Origin: Oscillospiraceae bacterium
Lineage (GTDB): Bacteria > Bacillota > Clostridia > Oscillospirales > Acutalibacteraceae
DNA length: 47,293 bases
NCBI GenBank assembly: GCA_015065845.1
Contig: SVPQ01000020.1
Coordinates: forward strand, 1 to 47,293
Direction: 5' to 3'
Made by a program: the position numbers and the translations under genes. Position 1 is the first letter of the stretch, and each line of letters begins with the position of its first letter. This document shows, one piece after another, positions 16,931-45,779 of this stretch. The notes under the pieces are model-generated. The model saw only the letters and a program-made list of their open reading frames with translations, was not told where the DNA came from and ran no database searches.

Positions 16931-17111
16931 GTGCAGAATGCAGAATTGAGGGTCCGCGACGCTATTATAATTAAATAACAAAAGATAAGTTCTATCATTT
17001 AAAGTTTTTTGTAAACTAAAAATGATAGAACTTGTTGTTTTTATTGATAATTAATCATAATCAAGTCCGCAGGACTTCCGAAATTCTGCACTCTGCATTA
17101 TGCATTCTGCA
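16918..17111. repeat. MITE-like element with inverted heptamer arrays
   Basis: At the left end four heptamers follow one another: TGCTGAA, TGCTGAG, TGCAGAA, TGCAGAA (16918-16945). At the right end, on the opposite strand, there are four more: TGCAGAA, TGCATAA, TGCAGAG, TGCAGAA (17111-17084). Next to each array, inside, lies a small GTCC-type palindrome, and the centre holds a long perfect hairpin. The stop TGA of the radical SAM gene is part of the second left heptamer, and the stop TAA of the convergent TIM-barrel gene is part of the second right heptamer. No coding capacity is seen. It resembles non-autonomous or short tandem heptamer repeats; its class is not established. Confidence 0.7.
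16987..17033. terminator. Bidirectional terminator hairpin inside the repeat element
   Basis: A perfect 14-bp stem AAGTTCTATCATTT (16987-17000) pairs with 17020-17033. The loop itself can form an inner AGTTT/AAACT stem. On the plus strand GTTGTTTTTATT follows. It sits between convergent genes and probably ends both transcripts. Confidence 0.72.
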
Positions 17112-34853: not shown

Positions 34854-34889
34854 TAGTATGTATATAAATTACAGAAATGGGGTTTTATT

Positions 34890-35615
34890 ATGATACGTTA
34901 TAAAATTGAGGGTGACAGCTTACCTGTTGTTATTTGTTATCCTGAAGCAGGTCAGACTTTAATGACTGAAGCAGGTGCTATGAGTTGGATGAGTCCAAAT
35001 ATTCAGATGGATACAAATTCAGGTGGCGGAATAAAAAAAGCGTTAGGCAGAATGTTTGCTGGTGAATCACTTTTTATGAATGAATTCACACCAAGAAACG
35101 GAACTGGAACTATAGCATTTGCTTCAAGTTTTCCCGGTTCAATAATCCCTTATGAAGTTTCACCGGGCAATGGAATCATTGTGCAGAAACACAGTTTTTT
35201 GGCTATGGAAAAAGGTCTTGACCTTTCTATTTTCTTCCAGAAAAAATTAGGTAAAGGTTTCTTTGGTGGCGAAGGATTTATTATGAATAAAATAAGCGGT
35301 AGCGGTATTGTATTTATTGAAATTGATGGTTATTGCAAAGAATATACATTACAGGCTAACGAAAGTATTATTGTCGACACAGGTTACCTTGCTGCAATGA
35401 GCGAAACTTGTACAATGGATATCGAAGCAGTTCAGGGTGCTAAAAACATCTTTCTAGGCGGAATGGGACTTTTCCACACTAAAGTTACAGGTCCTGGTAA
35501 AGTTTACCTTCAGACAATGCCTATTATTAAAACTGCAAAGGCTATTGAGCCATATTTGACATTCCCTACTACTGATGGAAATGGTGGCGGAATTAACATT
35601 CGTTTAGGAGATTAA
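34890..35615 (+). CDS. AIM24 family protein
   Basis: 241 residues. The pattern matches the bacterial AIM24/TIGR00266 family: an early TEAGAMSWM block, glycine-rich strands (ISGSGIVFIEIDG) and FLGGMGLFHTKVTGPGKVYLQTMP at the end of a twisted beta-sandwich. Bacterial members have no settled function; the yeast homologue is a mitochondrial inner-membrane organiser. No signal peptide. A GGGG-type ribosome site precedes ATG 34890. First gene of a five-gene plus-strand operon. Confidence 0.85.
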   Translation: MIRYKIEGDSLPVVICYPEAGQTLMTEAGAMSWMSPNIQMDTNSGGGIKKALGRMFAGESLFMNEFTPRNGTGTIAFASSFPGSIIPYEVSPGNGIIVQKHSFLAMEKGLDLSIFFQKKLGKGFFGGEGFIMNKISGSGIVFIEIDGYCKEYTLQANESIIVDTGYLAAMSETCTMDIEAVQGAKNIFLGGMGLFHTKVTGPGKVYLQTMPIIKTAKAIEPYLTFPTTDGNGGGINIRLGD

Positions 35616-35616
35616 A

Positions 35617-36510
35617 ATGCAACCTTTAGTAAGTGTTATTGTAGCAACATATAAACGAGACGAAATACTTTTAAGAGCATTAAATTCTCTTGCTACACAA
35701 ACCTATAAAAATTTCGAAATCATTTTAGTAGATGACAATGCAAATGATGAGTGGAACTCAAAAGTTTCAGAAGTAGTAAAAAAATTCAAGTCAGACTACC
35801 CTGAAATCACTTTGAAATACATCGTGAACAAAACAAATCAGGGCTCTGCCAAAACAAGAAATATAGGCATAGATGCATCAACTGGTGAATTCATTACATT
35901 TCTAGATGATGATGACATTTATTTACCAGAAAACATCGAAAAACAAATTGAAAATATGATTTCTGCAAATGCCGATTTTGGCATTACTGACCTTGATATG
36001 TTTTACGACGATGAATCTCTCTGTGAAAAAAGAACCCGTTACTTTATTAAATCAACAGAAAAAGAAGATTTAATAAAATATCATTTAATGCATCATTTAG
36101 CCGGTACAGACACTATGATTTTCAAAAAAGATTACTTATTGAAAATAGGTGGATTTGACCCTATTGATGTTGGTGATGAATTCTATTTAATGTTCAAAGC
36201 AATTGAAAATGGTGGTAAATTTACATATTTAAAAGGTTGTTTTGTCAAAGCTTATGTTCACAAAGGTGAAGGCGGACTATCAAGTGGTGATGGTAAAATT
36301 GACGGTGAAAATCGTCTTCACGAATTTAAAAAGAAATATTTTGACCATCTTTCAAAAAATGAAATAAAGTATATTGTAGCCCGTCACTATTCTGTAATTG
36401 CATTTGCAGAGTTAAGAAGAAAGCGTTTCCCTGCTTTTTTTCAAAATGCCATAAAAGCTTTCTTTACTTCCCCTATAAACTGTTTAAAAATTCTCAAGGA
36501 GCATTCGTAA
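35617..36510 (+). CDS. Family 2 glycosyltransferase
   Basis: 297 residues. GT-A fold: VSVIVATYKR start, nucleotide-sugar aspartates in ILVDDNAND (D39-D40), NQGSAKTRN, and the metal-binding DDDD at 97-100. A later D-x-G block (GGFDPIDVGDEFYL) fits the acceptor/base region. It should transfer a sugar from a nucleotide donor in the cytoplasm; the acceptor is not known. Its ATG is one base after the AIM24 stop. The short C-terminus (ARHYSVIAFAELRRKRF) is helical and basic, without a membrane segment. Confidence 0.88.
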   Translation: MQPLVSVIVATYKRDEILLRALNSLATQTYKNFEIILVDDNANDEWNSKVSEVVKKFKSDYPEITLKYIVNKTNQGSAKTRNIGIDASTGEFITFLDDDDIYLPENIEKQIENMISANADFGITDLDMFYDDESLCEKRTRYFIKSTEKEDLIKYHLMHHLAGTDTMIFKKDYLLKIGGFDPIDVGDEFYLMFKAIENGGKFTYLKGCFVKAYVHKGEGGLSSGDGKIDGENRLHEFKKKYFDHLSKNEIKYIVARHYSVIAFAELRRKRFPAFFQNAIKAFFTSPINCLKILKEHS

Positions 36511-36513
36511 TCA

Positions 36514-37314
36514 ATGAAAATTGAAGTTTTAGTTTCTACTATGCATCAGAAAAATACAGATTTAATAAATAAAATGAATCTTAAAACTGATGCAATTATT
36601 ATAAATCAGACTGATAACTCTGATTTTAAAGAACTTTCAATAAATAACAACAAAGTGCGTATGTTTTCATTTAATGAACGCGGTGTTGGTCTCAGCAGAA
36701 ACTCTGCTTTAATGCGTTCGGACGCTGATATATGCGTACTCGCAGATGACGATATGGTATTTTGCGATGATTACGAAGAAACTGTAAAAACTGCTTTTAA
36801 AGACAATCCACAGGCAGATTTGATAATTTTCAATTTAATTGAGGATGAAAAGAGTTTAAACAGACAAAACACAACAATTACTAAAATAAACATTCTGAAT
36901 TATATGAATTATGGTGCCGCAAGAATTGCTTTTAAGCGCAAAGCGGTGTCTTACAACGGAATTACATTCAATCTGAATTTTGGTGGCGGTACACCTCACC
37001 AATGTGGTGAAGATACTTTATTTATAAGAGATTGCTTAAAAAAAGGGCTTAATATAATAGCAGTACCACAAGCAATTGCCGAGTTAAAAGACGAACGGGA
37101 CTCAACCTGGTTTAAGGGTTACAACGAAAAATACTTTTTTGATAAAGGTGTTGTTCTCTCACTCGCCCACCCTATTTTAGCAAACCTGTTTTCATTTTAT
37201 TTAGTATTGCGACACGATGAATACACCGAAAACGGAATGAGCAAAAAAGAGGTTTACAAAGAAATTTGTAAAGGGATTAAATTTGTAAAGAAAAAGGAAT
37301 ATAAAAAGGTTTAG
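36514..37314 (+). CDS. GT2-like glycosyltransferase
   Basis: 266 residues. A diverged GT-A fold: the nucleotide-binding start is replaced by EVLVSTMHQKN, but the arrangement GVGLSRNSALM then ICVLADDDMVF (DDD 78-80) and GEDTLFIRDCLKKG is that of GT2 enzymes. The pair with the previous gene suggests one glycan pathway. AAGGAG is 12 bases from the ATG, slightly far. Ends with TAG, showing UAG is a normal stop here. Confidence 0.75.
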   Translation: MKIEVLVSTMHQKNTDLINKMNLKTDAIIINQTDNSDFKELSINNNKVRMFSFNERGVGLSRNSALMRSDADICVLADDDMVFCDDYEETVKTAFKDNPQADLIIFNLIEDEKSLNRQNTTITKINILNYMNYGAARIAFKRKAVSYNGITFNLNFGGGTPHQCGEDTLFIRDCLKKGLNIIAVPQAIAELKDERDSTWFKGYNEKYFFDKGVVLSLAHPILANLFSFYLVLRHDEYTENGMSKKEVYKEICKGIKFVKKKEYKKV

Positions 37315-37318
37315 TTTT

Positions 37319-38539
37319 ATGAAAAATTCTCTCTCAAAGCGTTGGTTATTTTTAGGTGTCGGCATTTTTACAATGCTTTTTTCAGGTGTACTTTACGCTT
37401 GGTCTATTTTAAAAATACCATTTAAAGAAGCATTTAATTTCAGTGATTCAACACTTGCGTTTAACTTTACATTAACAATGTGTTTTTTCTGCCTCGGTGC
37501 ATTCTTTGGCAGTTTAATCTGCAAAAAAATCGGCACTAAAATCACTCTGATAATTTCCGGTGTTTTAGTTGCACTCGGTTTTGTTTCAACAGGATTTTTA
37601 AATGAATCAACTCCACATACATTATTATACCTTACCTACGCTGTTTTAGCGGGTACAGGCATTGGTATTGCTTATAATGTTGTTGTTTCAACTGTTTGTG
37701 CGTGGTTCCCTGACAAAAAAGGACTTTGCTCAGGCTCACTTATGATGGGTTTTGGCGTAAGTACATTACTTTTAGGTAACGTTATCAGTATTCTTTTTGA
37801 AAATGGAGCTTTTGGTTTCAGTAAAACTTACATAACATTAGGTTTAGTAATTGGTGTTGTAATTACACTCTCTGGTATTATTCTGAAAAGACCTGACAGT
37901 AACACCGTATTCCCTGTACCGAAAGTAAAAAAACCTGCTTCAAAAGAGAACTTTGAAACACGGGACTTTACAACAAAAGAGATGCTTAAAAGCTTCACTT
38001 TCTGGAGAGCATTCCTGTGTATGGCATTTATTACCGCAGTCGGTAACACAGTTATAAGTTTTGCGAGAGATTTGATGCTTTCAGTTGATGCAATACCAAC
38101 ACTTGCAACTACATTAGTTGGTGTTCTTTCTGTATTCAACGGTATAGGCAGAATAATTACAGGTGCGTTTTACGATGCTTTAGGCAGAAGAACAACAATG
38201 ATTTCTGCAAATGTTTTAACCATTGTAGCGGCTGGTGTTACACTTTTAGGTGTTGTGATTCATTCGCTACCACTTTGCATTGTTGGTCTTTGCCTCACAG
38301 GTATTTCTTACGGTTCGTGCCCTACTGTAACCTCTGCATTTTCAGCATCGTTTTACGGACAAAAGCATTTCTCGACAAATTACAGTATTACAAACTTCAA
38401 TTTAATAGTTGCATCATTTATAGCAACATTCAGTAACTCATTACTGATTTCTACCGGTAGTTATGTAGCACCATTTATATTGCTACTTATATTAGCGGTT
38501 AGCGCTATGGGACTTAATTTAAGTATAAAAAGACCTTAG
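37319..38539 (+). CDS. MFS transporter, oxalate/formate antiporter (OFA) type
   Basis: 406 residues with about 12 hydrophobic helices and a polar loop near 195-220. The first helix VLYAWSIL and the block VVSTVCAWFPDKKGLCSG are characteristic of the OFA subfamily of major facilitator proteins, which move small monocarboxylates and dicarboxylates. The substrate cannot be told. SD AAAGG, four bases after the previous gene. Confidence 0.85.
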   Translation: MKNSLSKRWLFLGVGIFTMLFSGVLYAWSILKIPFKEAFNFSDSTLAFNFTLTMCFFCLGAFFGSLICKKIGTKITLIISGVLVALGFVSTGFLNESTPHTLLYLTYAVLAGTGIGIAYNVVVSTVCAWFPDKKGLCSGSLMMGFGVSTLLLGNVISILFENGAFGFSKTYITLGLVIGVVITLSGIILKRPDSNTVFPVPKVKKPASKENFETRDFTTKEMLKSFTFWRAFLCMAFITAVGNTVISFARDLMLSVDAIPTLATTLVGVLSVFNGIGRIITGAFYDALGRRTTMISANVLTIVAAGVTLLGVVIHSLPLCIVGLCLTGISYGSCPTVTSAFSASFYGQKHFSTNYSITNFNLIVASFIATFSNSLLISTGSYVAPFILLLILAVSAMGLNLSIKRP

Positions 38540-38550
38540 GAGTTAAAATT

Positions 38551-38880
38551 ATGGAAAACAATATAATAAAAATACCACCATATAACTGGTTTATAAATAA
38601 AAGCGATAACAAACCTGTTACTAATATTTATTCCGGTTCTTGCGACACAGAATACAATAAAGGTGCCGCACACTTAAAAACATTCAATTATAAAGTTTAT
38701 GTTGTTGATGTTGGTACAGAAACTGCACGATTTGTTGCAGAATGTTACTCTGTAGACCCTTGGAATGACGGATATAAAAAAGAAGACATTGGTAACAAAG
38801 AAGCCTCTTGCTCTGACGAGGGTTTAATAGAGCTTAACGAGTGGTTGAATGAAGAGCATAAGAAGTTTATTGAGAATTAA
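38551..38880 (+). CDS. Small unknown protein
   Basis: 109 residues, no signal peptide, no membrane segment. Many Asp, Asn and Lys residues; cysteines at CDTE, AECYS and ASCSDE. Alternating short strands (YKVYVVDVG, ARFVAECYSV) and a C-terminal helix suggest a small alpha/beta fold. SD AGGAG gives a confident start. Eleven bases after the MFS gene, so last gene of that operon. No family recognised. No clear terminator follows. Confidence 0.65.
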   Translation: MENNIIKIPPYNWFINKSDNKPVTNIYSGSCDTEYNKGAAHLKTFNYKVYVVDVGTETARFVAECYSVDPWNDGYKKEDIGNKEASCSDEGLIELNEWLNEEHKKFIEN

Positions 38881-38975
38881 ATCTTTTGAGTTCCAATAAA
38901 CTGTTTGCGCCGTTGGTTTTTATTAAAATAAACAAGCTGGCTAGATTTTTGTTATAAGACAATTTTTGTTAATTA

Positions 38976-39004
38976 TTGAAAAAACTTTAGATTTAATATA
39001 TAAT
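38976..39004 (+). promoter_or_regulatory. Promoter of the nuclease/dynamin-like operon
   Basis: -35 TTGAAA (38976-38981), 17-base spacer, -10 TATAAT (38999-39004). The predicted start near 39011 leaves a leader of about 30 bases. It separates this unit from the MFS operon. Confidence 0.8.
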
Positions 39005-39040
39005 TATGTTTAATTTAATACTTTGAAAGGAATGAGATTT

Positions 39041-39712
39041 GTGGCAAGTAGTCGAACATATATTTGTTTAGTTTGTGGAGAACGACATCAAGTATCTCCA
39101 GAAGAATACAAATCAATCAAAGGTAACCCTATTTGTGACAAATGCAAAGAAAGTACTTTTTCTGAAAACGAAAATATACCACAAACCACCAAACCCAATG
39201 TTCTTAATACTTTTTCTAATGTTGTAAGTGGTATTAGTCTAATTTTAGACAAAACTATCAATAAATCAGATAACACACCTGATACCTCGTTAAAAACAGC
39301 TGTTCATAAAATATCTTCTACACTTAATACGCCAAGTAGCATTGACGAGTATAATTGGAAACATATTGGTTGTCTTGGCGAGTTGTATGATAATAAAAAA
39401 CTTGGAGAATGGAGTTCGTATGTAGGTCTTTATATGCACAAAATGAACGGAGAAATAATGTATATAGGTCGTGCTATTGAGTACAACAATGGTGGTTTTA
39501 GAAAAAGACTCAGTGATTATTGCCGACCAAACGGAAGTGCACGAGTACATCCCTCAGGTCAAAAAATTTTTGCTAATCGCTACAATCTTCAGACATATCT
39601 GCTTATTGTAGGCACCGATGCTACTGCAGCTACAAAAACAAAATTACTTGAAGAAGTTTATGTTGCAAAATATAATCCACCTTGGAATGACAAATTGAAA
39701 ACGGATAAATAA
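39041..39712 (+). CDS. Zinc-ribbon GIY-YIG nuclease-like protein
   Basis: 223 residues. The N-terminus holds a zinc ribbon with two CxxC knuckles (C9-C12 and C32-C35). After a low-complexity linker (about 40-100) comes a GIY-YIG nuclease core: GLY at 129-131, YIG at 141-143, an arginine in GGFRKRL (154/156), glutamate in LLEEVYVAKYNPPWN (204/205) and the final Asn. All expected catalytic positions are present, so endonuclease activity is plausible. The start is taken as GTG 39041 because GAAAGGA sits nine bases upstream; ATG 39032 is too close to that site. It lies 15 bases before the first GTPase, so the two are one transcript. Target DNA or RNA is unknown. Confidence 0.8.
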   Translation: MASSRTYICLVCGERHQVSPEEYKSIKGNPICDKCKESTFSENENIPQTTKPNVLNTFSNVVSGISLILDKTINKSDNTPDTSLKTAVHKISSTLNTPSSIDEYNWKHIGCLGELYDNKKLGEWSSYVGLYMHKMNGEIMYIGRAIEYNNGGFRKRLSDYCRPNGSARVHPSGQKIFANRYNLQTYLLIVGTDATAATKTKLLEEVYVAKYNPPWNDKLKTDK

Positions 39713-39727
39713 AATAAGGAGTAAAAA

Positions 39728-41809
39728 ATGAATAAATTGGTAAAAAACGAGATTTTCGACTTTAAAAAGCTTTACAAATGCGTTTCTTCGCTCATACGAT
39801 GTGCGTCTTACTTTGACGAAAAAGAAAGAAATTTAACCATAAAATTAGAAAAACTTGCCCGAAAAATCGAGGTTTCAAATTATATTCATCAAAGAAACAT
39901 TATAGCAATTGCAGGTATGCAGGGTTCTGGTAAAAGTACGCTTATAAAAACTCTCTATAATTTACCAGACAATCTGTTAGCTATAGGTAGCGGACGTTCG
40001 GAAAGAACACCTGTTTTCATTACAGAAAGCAGCGAATTGAATGAAGGCGAATATAAAGCAAATGAAGTTATTCTTCAAGACGGGAAAAAAGAGGTAAATG
40101 AAATAAAAATCAATGAAATTCGCACCAAAAGCAAGAGTCCCAGGGGCATTGCTTATATAGAGTTATTTGTTCCTAAACGTTACTTTTCTTGTGAAAATGC
40201 AGGATTTGTTCTTCTACCAGGATTTGAGAAGAATGCTGACGGATTTTTTGACGAGGATTACAACAGTATTATACAATACGCACTATATTTCTCTAATGCT
40301 GTTATTCTTGCAACAGATGATGCAGGAATTGCAAACAGAGACATCTCAACTCTTACAGAAATACTCTTAAATAATAACTTCAATCTTTCTAATCTTGTTT
40401 TTGCTATAACGAAATGTGACACAACTTCAATTGGAAATAAAGAAGAAATGGTTACCTCGTTAATCGAAGCTTGTGAAGATTCAGGATTACCAATTTCAAA
40501 AAATAATATAGTTACTACCGGTTTATATAAAGATGATGCAGAAAATGAAAAATGGATTCAGGAATTTGCAGATGTAATAAATACTGAAGGTGTTCTTGAT
40601 TTTGATTCTGCAAGACGTAATTATTTATATTACAGACCTATGGTTGATGAAATGCTTTACTGTGCTGAAGTTCTTGAAAAGGAACTTGAAATAAAATCTA
40701 TAAGCACTGAAACTGAAAGCCCTATTTACCAAGAATTAAAAAATGCTCTTGAAAAAAAAGAAGAAGAATTAGATGACTTGCTGAGTGATGCTGTAAAAAC
40801 TGCTCAAAAACGTGCTGAAGATAAATTTGCAAGCGAAAGTGAAAAAATTGATAAAAAACATTTGAAATCAAAAAAGTTCCTTTTATTTAACAAAAATTAC
40901 AAGGATAATTATGAAGATAGACAAGCTATTTCAAAAGTATGCTCTGAATGTCTTATTGATTCTAATGGAAAAAGTTTCTTTATTGAAGAAGTAAGAAAAA
41001 AGGTTATGGAGCCAAATATAAAAGATTCTCTCGTTCAGAATTTCAACACCCCACTCCTTCCGGCTAATGAAGAACAAGAACAAATTAGCAATAATGAATA
41101 TAACATCGTTATGAATCAATATGTAAGTTACTACCTTGTATCAACAGATTTTAATAAACCTGTTGAGTCAAAAATTTACACACCTGATATCGCAGAAATT
41201 TCAGAAACAACCGCTATTGGACTTTATGGTACTTTTTTCAGTGCACTGTTTGCTCCACAAGTTTTAGATGAAAAACTCAAAGAAATCAACATTAAAGCTT
41301 CTAGCATACCTATCGCAATAAAATCGGCTCAAGGTTTTTTAGCAACACCAAATCCATTATTAACTACCTTTGGTCTTGTTGATATGCTTGATGGTAAATC
41401 TGATATCATAACCGCTATTGTAACAGCCTTTTCAAAAAAAGGTACCGAAGCTGCAGCAATTGCTTCAACAACATCTACAATTCTAGGCGTTGCATCAGTT
41501 GCGATAGTTGTTGCTATGTTAACCAAAACCGGAATCAATATTTACAATGCCACTGTCGATGAACAAAAGAAAATCTTGGAAGCCTGGGAAAAAGCCCTAA
41601 AGAATTCTATTGAAGAACAAAAAAATGAATGTCTCGAACTTTTCCATGATGCTAGTCAGAAATTACTTGATCACGTGCAAAATATACATAGTAAACGAAT
41701 GCATATTGGTGATACACAAGAAAGACTTATAAATGCAAAGTATGCAATTCAGGACATTAAATATCTCGCAAATAAATTCAATGACAACTATGCAGTTACA
41801 TTAGAGTAA
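39728..41809 (+). CDS. Dynamin-like large GTPase A with degenerate G3
   Basis: 693 residues. G1 is GMQGSGKST (63-71), G2 candidate T94 in SERTPVF, G3 position reads LLPG (162-165) where DxPG is expected, and G4 is TKCD (228-231). A helical region with coiled-coil character (about 305-390) follows, and hydrophobic segments (494-512 and about 573-598) could insert in membrane. This fold order - GTPase, helical bundle, hydrophobic paddle, C-terminal helices - is that of bacterial dynamin-like proteins. The missing G3 aspartate predicts weak hydrolysis by itself. SD AAGGAG. Distinct in sequence from the next GTPase, so not a recent duplicate. Confidence 0.78.
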   Translation: MNKLVKNEIFDFKKLYKCVSSLIRCASYFDEKERNLTIKLEKLARKIEVSNYIHQRNIIAIAGMQGSGKSTLIKTLYNLPDNLLAIGSGRSERTPVFITESSELNEGEYKANEVILQDGKKEVNEIKINEIRTKSKSPRGIAYIELFVPKRYFSCENAGFVLLPGFEKNADGFFDEDYNSIIQYALYFSNAVILATDDAGIANRDISTLTEILLNNNFNLSNLVFAITKCDTTSIGNKEEMVTSLIEACEDSGLPISKNNIVTTGLYKDDAENEKWIQEFADVINTEGVLDFDSARRNYLYYRPMVDEMLYCAEVLEKELEIKSISTETESPIYQELKNALEKKEEELDDLLSDAVKTAQKRAEDKFASESEKIDKKHLKSKKFLLFNKNYKDNYEDRQAISKVCSECLIDSNGKSFFIEEVRKKVMEPNIKDSLVQNFNTPLLPANEEQEQISNNEYNIVMNQYVSYYLVSTDFNKPVESKIYTPDIAEISETTAIGLYGTFFSALFAPQVLDEKLKEINIKASSIPIAIKSAQGFLATPNPLLTTFGLVDMLDGKSDIITAIVTAFSKKGTEAAAIASTTSTILGVASVAIVVAMLTKTGINIYNATVDEQKKILEAWEKALKNSIEEQKNECLELFHDASQKLLDHVQNIHSKRMHIGDTQERLINAKYAIQDIKYLANKFNDNYAVTLE

Positions 41810-41819
41810 AATACTACAG

Positions 41820-43694
41820 ATGAGAAATTTGACTAATACACTTGAAGATGTGTTAAATGAAACGATAACTTGGGAGAAATCACCCATAAATGAAATTTTC
41901 AACACTTCTTATACTTCAACTTCAAATTATTCTAAACAAATAATACTATATGGACCTACACAAGTTGGTAAAACAACTCTGATTATGGACCTTATAGGCA
42001 TTAAAAATTCGCGTCGTCTGGAATTAGACGAACTTTTAAAAGGCGGTTCCCGTTCAGGTTCCGCCTCTACGAGTAGTGCAATAATTTATAGTCGTTGGAA
42101 TGAAGATATGTTTGGCATTTCTCAAAAAAATATACATAGTTCCAACGATTCTATTCCCGAAAAACTCACAGCTGATGAGTTCAAACAAAGAATTCAAAGT
42201 ATAAACTCAAGAAACCGTTCTCAGGATGTATCACTTTCAGAACTTGCTGATATTTATTGTTTTTACATACCAAAGGATTATTTTGAACAAACCACAGAGT
42301 TACAAAACATTCAGATGATAGATTTACCTGGTTTTGGTGAGCGAAATGAAAAAATGCAAAAACGAGCAGACGAAATAATTTCTTATATTTCTGGTTTCGT
42401 TGCCGGTGCAGTAGTTGTTGTAAAAAGCGATAATATTCAAAGTCTTCAAAGTGATTACAAAAGATTTATCAGTAATCATCATATCAATCACCTTGCTGTT
42501 GCAATAAGTTATTCAGCTTCAAGAAACTTGGATGTCAGGAAAATGCTAGATGGTACCACAACCGATAAAGAAGTTGCTCTTAATATAGCTAATTATTATT
42601 ATAATCTCATTGAAGAAGATAATTATATGCATTTTAATAATCTTCCACCGGAGACCATTCTCTTCCCTCTTGAAAAAAGAGAGTATCTTGAAGAAAATCT
42701 TCCTGAATTTATCGGAGCATTTGATCAACTCAGGCAAATGTTAAAAGTGAGAATCACTTCTATGACTGAACGTACAGCTATAAAATCCTGCATTGAACAG
42801 CTTGATCTTGAAATAAAAAACTGTAAAGAAAGCATTGAATGTATTAAAACAGATATAGAGAAACTCGCTAACAGAAAAGAAGAATGCGATGAATTGATAA
42901 AAAAAGCAAAAAAAATTGAAAACAAGCTTATTAACGAATTGAAAATACTGGATAAAAAAATTACTTTTATAATAACTGCAAAAAACGAAATTTCTAAAAA
43001 AATCGATACATTTGAAGAAAATAAACACTATACCGAATTTGGTGCAAATTGCTTCTGGTCCGATGTAAAATCTTGCACCGAAAGCAAAAAAAAAGACGAG
43101 TTATTCAAGAGACTTTCAAGAGAAATTGATGATTGCATTGGTGAAAAAGCACCATTGCACGACAAAAAACTATATCTTTATATAAAAAATGAAATGGAAA
43201 AAGTACTTGATGATTTTAGCTTTAATTACTTTTTCAAAGGCGTTTGGGGGCACGGTAAAAAATGGGAAGAAAAAGCTGCGCGTCTTATAAATTCCTATTA
43301 TAAAAATATATGTACAGCCGGCAGAGATGCTTTAAAAAAAGAGAGCGAAAAGCTTATAAAAAAAGCCAAAAACGAAAAAACACCACTTGAAAATCAAAAA
43401 AATCAAAACTTTATTGTTCTAAATAATTTACAAAAGGAATTAGATGAGATAACTAATAAGCAGAGCGAATACACCGCGAAAATCAAGCAGTTGGATGAAG
43501 AAGCTGACAAAAAAATCGACAGACAAAAACACGTGATAGATATTTTCATAAAACATTTTTACAAGAAAGTAAATGAATTGGAATACCGTATTGAAAAAGA
43601 ACCAGTTCCAGAAATTAAAACAGCACTTTTCATCGTTCTTAGTTCTATTTATTTAAGTATGAAACCTTACTTGGAGGATATTGAAAATGAGTAA
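41820..43694 (+). CDS. Dynamin-like large GTPase B lacking canonical G4
   Basis: 624 residues. G1 is GPTQVGKTT (45-53), G2 probably in the STSS block near 83-86, G3 is complete as DLPG (168-171). Where N/TKxD should be, the sequence reads VAISYSASRN, so guanine recognition is altered. Long charged coiled-coil stretches (about 318-400 and 500-590) follow, then a hydrophobic C-terminal patch (FIVLSSIYLSM). There are three cysteines in the middle (NCFWSD, SCTESK) of unclear meaning. The ribosome site is weak and the gene begins ten bases after GTPase A, so translation may depend on it. Confidence 0.75.
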   Translation: MRNLTNTLEDVLNETITWEKSPINEIFNTSYTSTSNYSKQIILYGPTQVGKTTLIMDLIGIKNSRRLELDELLKGGSRSGSASTSSAIIYSRWNEDMFGISQKNIHSSNDSIPEKLTADEFKQRIQSINSRNRSQDVSLSELADIYCFYIPKDYFEQTTELQNIQMIDLPGFGERNEKMQKRADEIISYISGFVAGAVVVVKSDNIQSLQSDYKRFISNHHINHLAVAISYSASRNLDVRKMLDGTTTDKEVALNIANYYYNLIEEDNYMHFNNLPPETILFPLEKREYLEENLPEFIGAFDQLRQMLKVRITSMTERTAIKSCIEQLDLEIKNCKESIECIKTDIEKLANRKEECDELIKKAKKIENKLINELKILDKKITFIITAKNEISKKIDTFEENKHYTEFGANCFWSDVKSCTESKKKDELFKRLSREIDDCIGEKAPLHDKKLYLYIKNEMEKVLDDFSFNYFFKGVWGHGKKWEEKAARLINSYYKNICTAGRDALKKESEKLIKKAKNEKTPLENQKNQNFIVLNNLQKELDEITNKQSEYTAKIKQLDEEADKKIDRQKHVIDIFIKHFYKKVNELEYRIEKEPVPEIKTALFIVLSSIYLSMKPYLEDIENE

Positions 43695-44397
43695 TACAAA
43701 ATCCGGTAAAAAAGAATTCTCGAATGAAGTAAACGAAAAACTCTCTTCTGTTTTTCAAGCATTTGCTGTAAACCCTGTAAACCAAAGTACTGACGACCGC
43801 ATTACAACACTCGAGAAAAGAATTTTTGAAAGCACAGATGATGAACCTTCGTTAGAAGATAATATTTTAAATAGTACCGAAGAAATTAATCGCAGAGTAA
43901 AAAGAATTAATGACGCACTATCAAAGATGGACGAACAAAGCGAAAACCTTTCTGTAGAAATTACTTCTGCAAAAAATGCGATTATCGCTAACCAAAATAA
44001 TATTACAGAGAACGAAAAAGAGTTTTTCAGTAAATTGAGTGAACAAAACGAAGTTCTACGCGAAAATATAAAATCTCGATTTAGAAATATTGATGACTTG
44101 CTTTCCCACAACACTAATACTACAAATGATATTTTTAGTATTGTAAAAACTTCATACGAAGACATAATTCAAGCATTAGATTATCATACCAACTCTGTAA
44201 ATTCATATATAGAAAGCACTTTACATCCTCTAAAAACAGACATAGAAGCAACAAAAGATGTTGTAAATAAAATTGATAATAATATTGTAGAATTCATAGA
44301 AAAAAACAAGAATCTGAAAAAGATATTAGGAATACTTCTAGCTACAACCGGAACTACAACACTACTTTTAATTATCGTTTTAATACTAATCATATAG
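43687..44397 (+). CDS. Tail-anchored coiled-coil membrane protein
   Basis: 236 residues. Nearly the whole soluble part is charged heptad-rich helix (for example ISKM/SEITSAKNAI-like segments, LSEQNEVLRENIKSRFRNIDDLL). A single transmembrane helix ends the protein (about 213-236, ILLATTGTTTLLLIIVLILII), so the coiled coil faces the cytoplasm and the C-terminus is in the membrane. ATG 43687 has GGAGG nine bases upstream and overlaps the end of GTPase B by eight bases (ATGAGTAA), a strong coupling signal. No enzyme motif. It may anchor or scaffold the GTPases. Confidence 0.75.
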   Translation: MSNTKSGKKEFSNEVNEKLSSVFQAFAVNPVNQSTDDRITTLEKRIFESTDDEPSLEDNILNSTEEINRRVKRINDALSKMDEQSENLSVEITSAKNAIIANQNNITENEKEFFSKLSEQNEVLRENIKSRFRNIDDLLSHNTNTTNDIFSIVKTSYEDIIQALDYHTNSVNSYIESTLHPLKTDIEATKDVVNKIDNNIVEFIEKNKNLKKILGILLATTGTTTLLLIIVLILII

Positions 44398-44410
44398 TTT
44401 TATAAAAATT

Positions 44411-44449
44411 AAAAGAACTGAGCGAATTCACATACTGCTCAGTTCTTTT
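44411..44449. terminator. Bidirectional terminator after the dynamin-like operon
   Basis: AAAAGAACTGAGC (44411-44423) pairs with GCTCAGTTCTTTT (44437-44449) with no mismatch and a 13-base loop; T-rich sequence on both sides. It closes the plus-strand operon and the convergent ribokinase gene. Confidence 0.85.
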
Positions 44450-44453
44450 GTGT

Positions 44454-45349
44454 TTATTCAATTTCACACATATATGGAATCGATTTCGACGCACCCGGGC
44501 GACTGACTGTTATTGCAGATGCTTTGGTAGCATAAACAATAGCATTATTGAGTGTTTCGTTTTTTGAAAGTTTTGAAACTAATGCACCTATAAATGTATC
44601 ACCAGCAGAAGTGGTATCTACTACATTGGTTTTCAACGCAGGTTCAAACAAAATACTGTCACCCACATTGTAAGCACAACCACGCTCGCCGAGAGTTATA
44701 ATTACATTTTTAACACCCATTTGCTTTAGTTTTAAAACTGCTTTTCGGGCGTTTTCTTCGTTATCAGGGTAAATACCCGTTAAATTGTGTGCTTCGTGTT
44801 CATTAGGAATTATATAATCTATCTGTAAAAAAATCTCATTTGGTAACTCTTTAAAAGGTGCAGGATTAAGAATAATTTTTGTGTCAGATTTTTTTGCAAT
44901 TTCACATGCTTTTAAAACAGTTTCCACTGGTATTTCTAACTGCAAAACACAATATTCACATTCAGCTATTAAATCTCTGTAATTTTCAATTACTTCGGGT
45001 GTAAGTTTTGCGTTTGCGCCAGAATCAAGAATAATAAAATTATTACCATCCACAACTGTAATCATAGCAATACCCGTAGGTGCTTCACTGGTTACAAATC
45101 CTTTAAAATCAACATTATTATTCTTTAATTCATTCAGTAGCAACTCACCATTTGCGTCGTTGCCGACACAACCACAAAATGAAACATTACCACCTAATTT
45201 TGCAATTGCAACTGCCTGGTTAAGTCCCTTTCCCCCGCATTAACTTGAAAATTACTACCTGTAAGCGTTTCGCCAATCTGTGGCATTTTTGGTGAATGAA
45301 TAACTAAATCGGCATTGGCACTACCAATAACAATGATTTTAGAAGACAC
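44454..45349 (-). pseudogene. rbsK: Ribokinase (PfkB family) with single-base frameshift
   Basis: A GTG at 45349 with GGTGG upstream opens a typical ribokinase start (SSKIIVIGSANADLV). The frame holds to VNAG and then breaks; dropping one base phase restores GGKGLNQAVAIAKLGG and the rest of the protein to 44454, including NPAP, IIPNEHEA and the ATP/catalytic block DTTSAGDTF. The break is in a run of five G (plus strand C at 45232-45236) where six are needed. So the gene is a full PfkB kinase apart from a one-base deletion, either a real pseudogene, an assembly error in a homopolymer, or a slippage site. Ribokinase phosphorylates D-ribose. A shorter product starting at 45143 would lack the sugar-binding N-terminus. 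Confidence 0.82.
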
Positions 45350-45362
45350 ATTAACACCACCT

Positions 45363-45779
45363 TTAATCCAAATGATTTACTCCACCTTTTTCCTTCGCAT
45401 CTTTCTCAGCAAGTTCTCTTGCTTCATCCGTTGTTAACGAATCATGCAAAGAACTTGCAAATTTGCACACACCAACAATAACGAGACTTGCAGCAGACAT
45501 AGTTGCAAAAGCAAGTAACAAACTAATCAAATCGCCTACCAGTCCGCCAACACGGTCAGCAAAATTCTCTATGTAAACGCTTGTATATGCGAGTACAAAC
45601 ATTGACAATACCCCTGATAGACACAACATACCCGCTCTGCGTATTTTCATATTAAAAATATATTTTCTCGTCAGCAACTCCAATTTTCTCTCATCTGTTA
45701 TTTCGGGATTATTTGTTGCAACTTTTTGGTAAGCCTCAAGAATTTCATTTTGCTTTTTAATTTGCTTTTTGTTTTTCAT
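45363..45779 (-). CDS. Small two-helix membrane protein
   Basis: 138 residues. Lysine-rich N-terminus, two transmembrane helices (about 47-70 and 80-106) and a short charged C-terminal tail (LTTDEARELAEKDAKEKGG). ATG 45779 with AGGTG upstream is the likely start; the frame to 45833 would add a hydrophobic stretch with no ribosome site. It is co-oriented with rbsK (13 bases between them). Function unknown. A TATAAT with upstream TG at 45801-45806 (minus strand) may be its promoter. Confidence 0.7.
   Translation of the reverse strand: MKNKKQIKKQNEILEAYQKVATNNPEITDERKLELLTRKYIFNMKIRRAGMLCLSGVLSMFVLAYTSVYIENFADRVGGLVGDLISLLLAFATMSAASLVIVGVCKFASSLHDSLTTDEARELAEKDAKEKGGVNHLD

Follow-up and report, generated by a model that had tools for sequence, protein, structure and literature searches.

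A 47,293-nucleotide stretch of an Oscillospiraceae genome (assembly GCA_015065845.1, contig SVPQ01000020.1; hereafter the window) contains an operon which the first-pass annotation described as a four-gene unit comprising a zinc-ribbon GIY-YIG nuclease-like protein, two unlike dynamin-type GTPases and a tail-anchored coiled-coil protein. Our analysis revealed that the conserved unit is not this four-gene operon and is instead a rare trio consisting of the two GTPases (A and B) followed by the tail-anchored protein (C). The trio is a genuine mobile three-gene dynamin-pair system, undescribed as far as we searched, and we lean towards reading it as a membrane-acting, probably antiphage dynamin pair that carries its own tail-anchored adaptor. 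All four of the co-directional open reading frames (ORFs) initially claimed are real and tightly packed on the + strand (39041-39712, 39728-41809, 41820-43694 and 43687-44397), successive ORFs being separated by 15 bp, then 10 bp, then overlapping by 8 bp. ORF 1 starts with a GTG codon, and Shine-Dalgarno-like stretches are found 5' of ORFs 1, 2 and 4. The trio corresponds to the last three ORFs:

39728..41809, + strand: GTPase A, 693 aa, with relatives in 45 genome loci
41820..43694, + strand: GTPase B, 624 aa, a member of the dynamin superfamily
43687..44397, + strand: protein C, 236 aa, a coiled coil with a C-terminal transmembrane segment and a predicted adaptor role

One scan of 84,980 species genomes, using an alignment of A only (A1) as query, detected 45 loci, which are not all independent as several enterobacterial, Pseudomonas and Janthinobacterium copies come from close relatives. 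A is incomplete in three of them: in L018 and L026 the contig breaks off within A, while only its first part is present in L054. The latter ORF seems to leave A after about 92 residues and to continue over another gene, as judged by eye, and was treated as a fragment rather than as an A without B. In the other 42 loci B was identified by profile directly downstream of A, which is split in two ORFs in L053. The contig ends in B in L010 and L013; the other 40 loci all have a third ORF after B. The grouping of two unlike GTPases and a tail-anchored protein, as first proposed, is thus recurrent; the nuclease is not supported as a defining component of it. The trio was found across Bacillota, Bacteroidota, Ignavibacteria, Acidobacteriota and Pseudomonadota, in hosts including Clostridia, Faecalibacterium, Prevotella, Ignavibacteriales, Edaphobacter and many Proteobacteria. 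Pairwise distances of A and B over 32 loci correlate with an r of 0.97 (none of 2000 permutations was as high), and those of A-C and B-C with values of 0.81 and 0.84, a co-variation that partly reflects shared species history. The third match of the first relatives search (G045, E value 5e-4) is no relative according to later profiles.

Other collections contain the trio as well. A tblastn search with A matched 11 plasmids as well as one gut contig. Among the regions examined, plasmids of Enterobacter, Klebsiella and P. luteola (one each) and the gut contig encode A, B and then a protein with a C-terminal hydrophobic tail; a Gluconobacter record has B in two ORFs and an insertion sequence before a third gene. 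Among the 12 plasmid records with B, A lies directly beside it by position in 11. The twelfth, a Sphingomonas plasmid, bears an ORF (L085:2967-6719) that begins with a helicase-like part, as seen in L036, continues into B and is followed by C; this ORF, lacking A and the P-loop of B, is a natural deletion derivative. A was found in one of 394 genomes of the order and one of 398 genomes of the phylum, each time the window's own, by searches that score few candidates per genome. The whole trio is encoded by five of 5,426 Escherichia coli genomes, and 13 more have partial matches, ten of which cover only the last 359 bp of C. In these ten genomes (H20-H29) the 359 bp are 99.4% identical and lie in an annotated hypothetical gene; they are either trio relics or the tail of another gene. 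Viral contigs gave no match with the A of the window (P0002) or with B, and one locus with the A alignment.

In the window, the hydrophobic tail of protein C covers residues about 214-236 (about 44326-44394) and runs to the last residue. We measured 45 third ORFs, 40 from the genome-scan loci (109-462 aa) and five from other collections. The strongest hydrophobic stretch is located near the C-terminus in 44 of them, the exception, L049, containing Ns. A strict tail-anchor test, i.e., one hydrophobic segment ending in the last 20 residues, is passed by 42 of the 45 (L019, L022 and L049 fail) and by four of 250 neighbouring ORFs (three of the 186 of up to 470 aa). Some of the E. coli copies are named 'coiled-coil domain-containing protein' in RefSeq. 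The initial description of C as a tail-anchored coiled-coil protein is borne out by these observations. Its description as an added extra is not, as a third ORF follows B wherever the locus is visible and C belongs to the core. We infer from this anatomy that C may serve as a tail-anchored adaptor.

Sequence comparisons indicate that the GTPases A and B are related and have lost different motifs. A comparison of their profiles identifies a GTPase domain common to both (probability 95, E value 2.4e-8, 188 columns). The A protein of the window has an intact P-loop (GMQGSGKS), the sequence LLPGFE without Asp at the G3 position, and a hydrophobic segment at residues 585-603 (about 41480-41536). 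Throughout the family the P-loop is intact and goes with a G[RQ]xE-x-x-P signature and with LLPG[YF]E at the G3 place in 35 of 35 sequences, and the hydrophobic maximum is found at 0.80-0.87 of the length in 33 of 35. The G3 Asp of normal GTPases coordinates magnesium; A has a Leu at that position. The B protein of the window combines a P-loop (GPTQVGKTT) with a G3 motif (DLPG, residues 168-171, about 42321-42332) and a long C-terminal part that appears helical or coiled-coil by eye and from weak coiled-coil matches. DxPG is found with a P-loop in 33 of 33 B proteins, which have no hydrophobic segment at a constant place. The (N/T)KxD motif is absent from the aligned stretch in all 33, and a looser look at residues 181-320 revealed NKxD once, in L016. 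At an E value of 1e-3, the Pfam Dynamin_N domain is matched by 21 of 33 B proteins (best 3.1e-9), the window's own B reaching 0.079. The dynamin-type label of the first-pass annotation fits B better than A, which is linked to B by the profile comparison. An NCBIfam scan of the 35 A proteins gave one weak P-loop match, and sequence searches of the PDB gave P-loop, coiled-coil and chance matches only, among the matches listed.

LeoABC, as presented in the available text of PMC4159319, is an unlike dynamin pair in tandem with a membrane anchor and lies in a mobile region. LeoC and LeoB there make up a single dynamin that is interrupted within the GTPase domain; the split fragment carries the anchor, and the gene order is leoC-leoB-leoA (PMC4159319, same text). 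The trio resembles LeoABC/Eleos in its unlike dynamin-related GTPases, the membrane anchor within the operon, the mobile region and a weak similarity to both models, and it could be regarded as a very divergent Eleos/LeoABC branch devoted to vesicle release or antiphage activity, C being the counterpart of the extra anchor of LeoC. We consider this unlikely. P0002 does match the PADLOC LeoA model at 5.5e-9, and at 1e-3 LeoA is matched by 5 of 35 A and 7 of 33 B proteins, and LeoBC by 9 of 35 A and 14 of 33 B (best B 2.3e-12). However, most members have no match, and the best stretches of P0002, alignment coverage referring to the window's proteins only, are limited to the P-loop region (positions 5-93 of 559 in LeoA and 77-113 of 601 in LeoBC). 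The B of the window (P0003) matches LeoBC with an E value of 0.32. Searched against the PDB at an E value of 10, the A profile found no chain called LeoA among the best 60 of 69 matches. A LeoA search of 99 relatives, uninformative in itself, gave no match anywhere, 14 control genomes included. The window's proteins show no full-length match to the LeoA or LeoBC models, nor is there a split or fused LeoC-LeoB (the fused form being known by model name only) upstream of LeoA without a further core gene. Unlike LeoABC as described in that text, the trio encodes two whole GTPases and then a separate coiled-coil protein with a C-terminal anchor, a gene which the same portion of PMC4159319 does not describe; A also lacks the G3 Asp and B a recognisable G4 motif. 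The trio, as tested with these models, is thus best read as lying outside Eleos/LeoABC. The parallel drawn in the first-pass annotation holds as an analogy between unlike dynamin pairs with an anchor, which appear only distantly related. No description of an A-B-C trio was recognised in the literature searched, a coverage outside which most subscription papers fall. The 'Dynamins' system of DefenseFinder on a Pseudomonas island was inactive against the phages tested, according to the accessible part of PMC12595487.

The first gene of the operon has a different history from that of the trio:

39041..39712, + strand: accessory gene encoding a zinc ribbon and a GIY-YIG-like nuclease domain, 223 aa; also found upstream of A in L010

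Its product bears an N-terminal zinc ribbon (C9, C12, C32 and C35, about 39065-39145) and a C-terminal GIY-YIG-like domain (residues about 106-216, about 39356-39688). The domain is 36% identical to a RefSeq 'GIY-YIG nuclease family protein', and weak matches were obtained to UvrC (3.5e-4, residues 119-223) and to a PHROG phage endonuclease family (1.9e-4). G129, Y131, Y141-I142-G143, R154/R156, E204 and N216 are conserved across four aligned sequences, of which two are nearly identical; these positions correspond to the motifs of GIY-YIG nucleases (GIY, YIG and the active-site Arg, Glu and Asn). The initial assignment as a zinc-ribbon nuclease is consistent with these residues, although no Pfam GIY-YIG match was found at an E value of 1.

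Could the true unit still be the four-gene operon, with the nuclease as killing or DNA-cutting effector and the GTPases only sensing or positioning it? All four genes lie in one inserted cassette, the order nuclease, A, start of B is kept in L010, and other nucleic-acid genes are found close upstream of the trio elsewhere: on the same strand and as judged by eye, these are helicase-like ORFs at 40-83 bp in L039, L045 and L020, and an ORF resembling a restriction nuclease at 97 bp in L032. Yet among ORFs of at least 60 aa up to 8 kb on each side of the trio loci, at E values up to 10, no homologue of the nuclease was found except in its own genome and L010, and a search of 20 trio-carrying genomes gave one weak match, in a single genome. 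Phages gave no match, and plasmids one, a short Shewanella gene. One further match among the 394 genomes of the order (G388) is a 364-aa protein that crosses the membrane several times and contains the domain within it (L057:1288-2382, - strand), an unusual place for a nuclease domain. Both proteins have the same domain type and are 35-36% identical to it over the domain, and A and B are absent from the 10.3-kb stretch around the Shewanella gene and the 3.3-kb stretch around the G388 gene. Upstream neighbours of the trio vary, and defence islands juxtapose unrelated defence genes. We therefore rejected the nuclease as part of a four-gene core and regard the four-gene unit as improbable. The nuclease is a local companion of this lineage which moved with the trio and is not a defining part of it.

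The mobility of the operon is directly visible at its insertion site:

38882..44411, + strand: inserted cassette comprising the four genes and the promoter, edges accurate to within about 30 bp, empty site in G011 (L081)
38976..39004, + strand: promoter-like site TTGAAA-17-TATAAT, 11 of 12 matches, the best in the region, inside the cassette
44410..44450 (about), no strand assigned: terminator hairpin, present at the empty site and hence older than the cassette

The kinase gene to the right of the operon was sought in 22 genomes of the same genus; six matched, own included, and four regions were examined. In G011, window positions 34873-38881 are joined to 44438-45377 with 23 bp between them and the operon is absent, from which it follows that the copy in the window is an inserted cassette of about 5.5 kb. 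As the hairpin is present at this empty site, insertion of the cassette separated a gene from the terminator it originally had. The cassette spot is occupied in G001 by a haloacid-dehalogenase-like gene, G018 is rearranged there and contains a gene for an 879-aa collagen-like protein (names by eye), and the contig of G015 is too short to show the site; profiles found neither A nor B in any of the four regions. The 879-aa repeat protein (L082:6003-8642) adjoins a sulfite-exporter-like gene found elsewhere in the window, suggesting a rearrangement-prone spot. G021, a second genome of the genus, has a near-identical nuclease, A and the start of B, then its contig ends; this contig appears to be L010, from a goat-rectum Clostridia metagenome-assembled genome. 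The patchy presence of the trio and the empty site led us to reject a housekeeping function. With 31.8% G+C, the operon is the lowest of the 5.4-kb stretches sampled in the window (mean 34.1, standard deviation 1.3). It is flanked by a 109-aa gene and an MFS transporter gene on the left and by a PfkB-type kinase gene on the opposite strand on the right (product names by eye). The consensus promoter initially proposed is the best such site of the region, although promoter-like sites overall are at chance level (26 found versus 27.9 +/- 5.0 expected). The strong terminator is a significant hairpin (-19.1 kcal/mol, z -5.7, 0 of 200 shuffles), which a scan restricted to short loops did not pick up, but it belonged to the older locus.

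The trio is located among known defence genes far more often than control places are. A PADLOC scan at an E value of 1e-20 covered 240 of the 250 ORFs that neighbour the trio in 35 loci. Its two sets of 120 ORFs matched 97 and 140 models, while a control of 100 ORFs taken at arbitrary positions in ten of these genomes matched 11, one protein each. These counts are of models and not of proteins, and several models can match one helicase, so that the ratio is a rough guide only. All ten control genomes belong to the second set of loci, leaving the first, with the Clostridia, without a control. Among the 25 models listed for the first set are IetA, DrmD, Druantia DruE/DruH, BrxL, ZacABC, type I restriction, viperin and reverse transcriptase; the 25 listed for the second include DrmA/DrmD, BrxH, ZorD, HmaA, WYL, PD-T4-6 and DpdE. 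A TIR-TM protein is encoded 560 bp upstream of the trio in L011 (E value 7e-92). Four of the five E. coli contexts were examined. In strain USMARC-51408 the trio lies beside ydeT with AbiTii, HamA and a broken helicase gene downstream, and MSB1_9I has it at that position too, accompanied by integrase, HNH, restriction and helicase genes. The neighbours are often known defence genes, a point which the first-pass annotation proposed to check, and this gene company suggests that a defence role of the trio is likely.

A membrane-maintenance or stress system on mobile DNA, not mainly devoted to defence, would be a further reading. Bacillus subtilis DynA, a fused double dynamin, protects membranes and delays phage lysis (PMC8844932, available part). 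It shares with the trio two dynamin-type GTPase units brought together and a phage link through the membrane, and differs in being one fused protein for which that part of the source mentions no adaptor gene. Some contexts of the trio are metabolic or stress regions, as would suit a surveillance function like that of DynA. The very patchy distribution and the strong enrichment of defence models around the trio argue against such a function, which seems to us quite unlikely.

The upstream neighbours of the trio are not constant. A single cluster of neighbours recurs in more than three loci; it is helicase-like and was found in 8 of them, at distances that vary. Small zinc-ribbon proteins of a CGWS...P.SDV type, a candidate fourth component, are encoded near the trio on the same strand in L018:5908-6108, L020:12760-12963, L045:13808-14026 and L053:7593-7838. 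A profile built from these four does not find the ribbon of the window; it gave 10 matches near and 9 far from the trio (0.088 vs 0.029 per kb, spurious ORFs included). In loci of the Faecalibacterium type a protein of 108-125 aa with a mildly hydrophobic stretch is encoded directly before A (L005:92-469, L012:7523-7849, L013:1205-1531), and further upstream both L012 and L013 carry a helix-turn-helix gene with resemblance to a WYL regulator.

A putative mechanism can be proposed from the anatomy of the trio and its gene company. C, a coiled-coil protein, would be anchored in the cytoplasmic membrane by its tail and would recruit and organise A and B, which would work as an obligate unlike pair of dynamin-related GTPases. 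B, with complete G1 and G3 motifs, would be the hydrolysing partner. A combines a P-loop with a hydrophobic segment that can be likened to the bacterial dynamin paddle and may insert into or sense the membrane; having lost the G3 aspartate, it is likely a non- or weakly hydrolysing, membrane-inserting partner. Infection by a phage would trigger assembly of the complex at the membrane, which would then be locally remodelled, sealed or disrupted, and in the cassette of the window the nuclease may add nucleic-acid cutting. In eukaryotes, MFF and FIS1 are tail-anchored adaptors recruiting the fission dynamin DRP1 to the membrane (PMC9377713, in the portion available). The likeness to the trio, a tail-anchored adaptor with a dynamin, is one of analogy only, as one dynamin is recruited there and two unlike ones would be here.

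Beyond the shared species history, several points weigh against the trio being an antiphage dynamin pair with an adaptor. The limits of the neighbour counts and of their control have been given, and some contexts do not resemble defence islands: two of the four E. coli contexts, strain S43 and plasmid pR2-1, have the trio among sugar-metabolism and insertion-sequence genes, and in these two, as on the Klebsiella plasmid, genes for metabolism, stress or insertion sequences predominate. The copy of the window itself is flanked by housekeeping genes. Sequences of C align poorly, with a mean column identity of 12%. Dynamin_N matches 2 of 35 A proteins, so that the dynamin assignment of A is weak by itself. 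A G4-like [TSA]K[CT][DE] motif is found in 21 of 35 A proteins, with an Asp in one, the window's; the losses of A and B are thus not cleanly complementary, the G4 of A also being not fully kept. Finally, one lost GTPase motif is no proof of lost hydrolysis. An antiphage dynamin pair with its own adaptor nevertheless remains the reading we favour. A more specific version is tentative, namely that of an undescribed bacterial immune machine in which a tail-anchored coiled-coil adaptor mounts on the inner membrane an obligate GTPase pair whose catalytic losses differ and are partly complementary (the G3 Asp in A, G4 in B), and different lineages attach different nucleic-acid or signalling modules to it. 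The modules, no less tentatively, would be the zinc-ribbon GIY-YIG nuclease here and helicases or the TIR-TM protein elsewhere. This version is weakened by the fact that 14 of 35 A sequences themselves have a degenerate G4 motif. If true, the machine would represent a functional equivalent, in prokaryotes, of the MFF-DRP1 arrangement.

Another part of the window contains an intergenic element of strong palindromic character (16955-17090, z -5.4), which has 58 matches in its own genome, both orientations counted, and more copies in contigs of the same genus. No Rfam families were found in the window except three tRNAs.

By 2014 most known bacterial dynamins were encoded in tandem, and the authors of the LeoABC study argued for unlike pairs and could not produce the second partner (PMC4159319, available text). 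The trio is a compact natural system in which the difference between the two partners is invariant and can be tested, and which comes with a putative membrane adaptor of its own. The E. coli copies make laboratory tests easy. Nucleases and NAD-depleting enzymes are prominent in the phage-defence field; if antiphage, the trio would add a membrane-remodelling mechanism to it.

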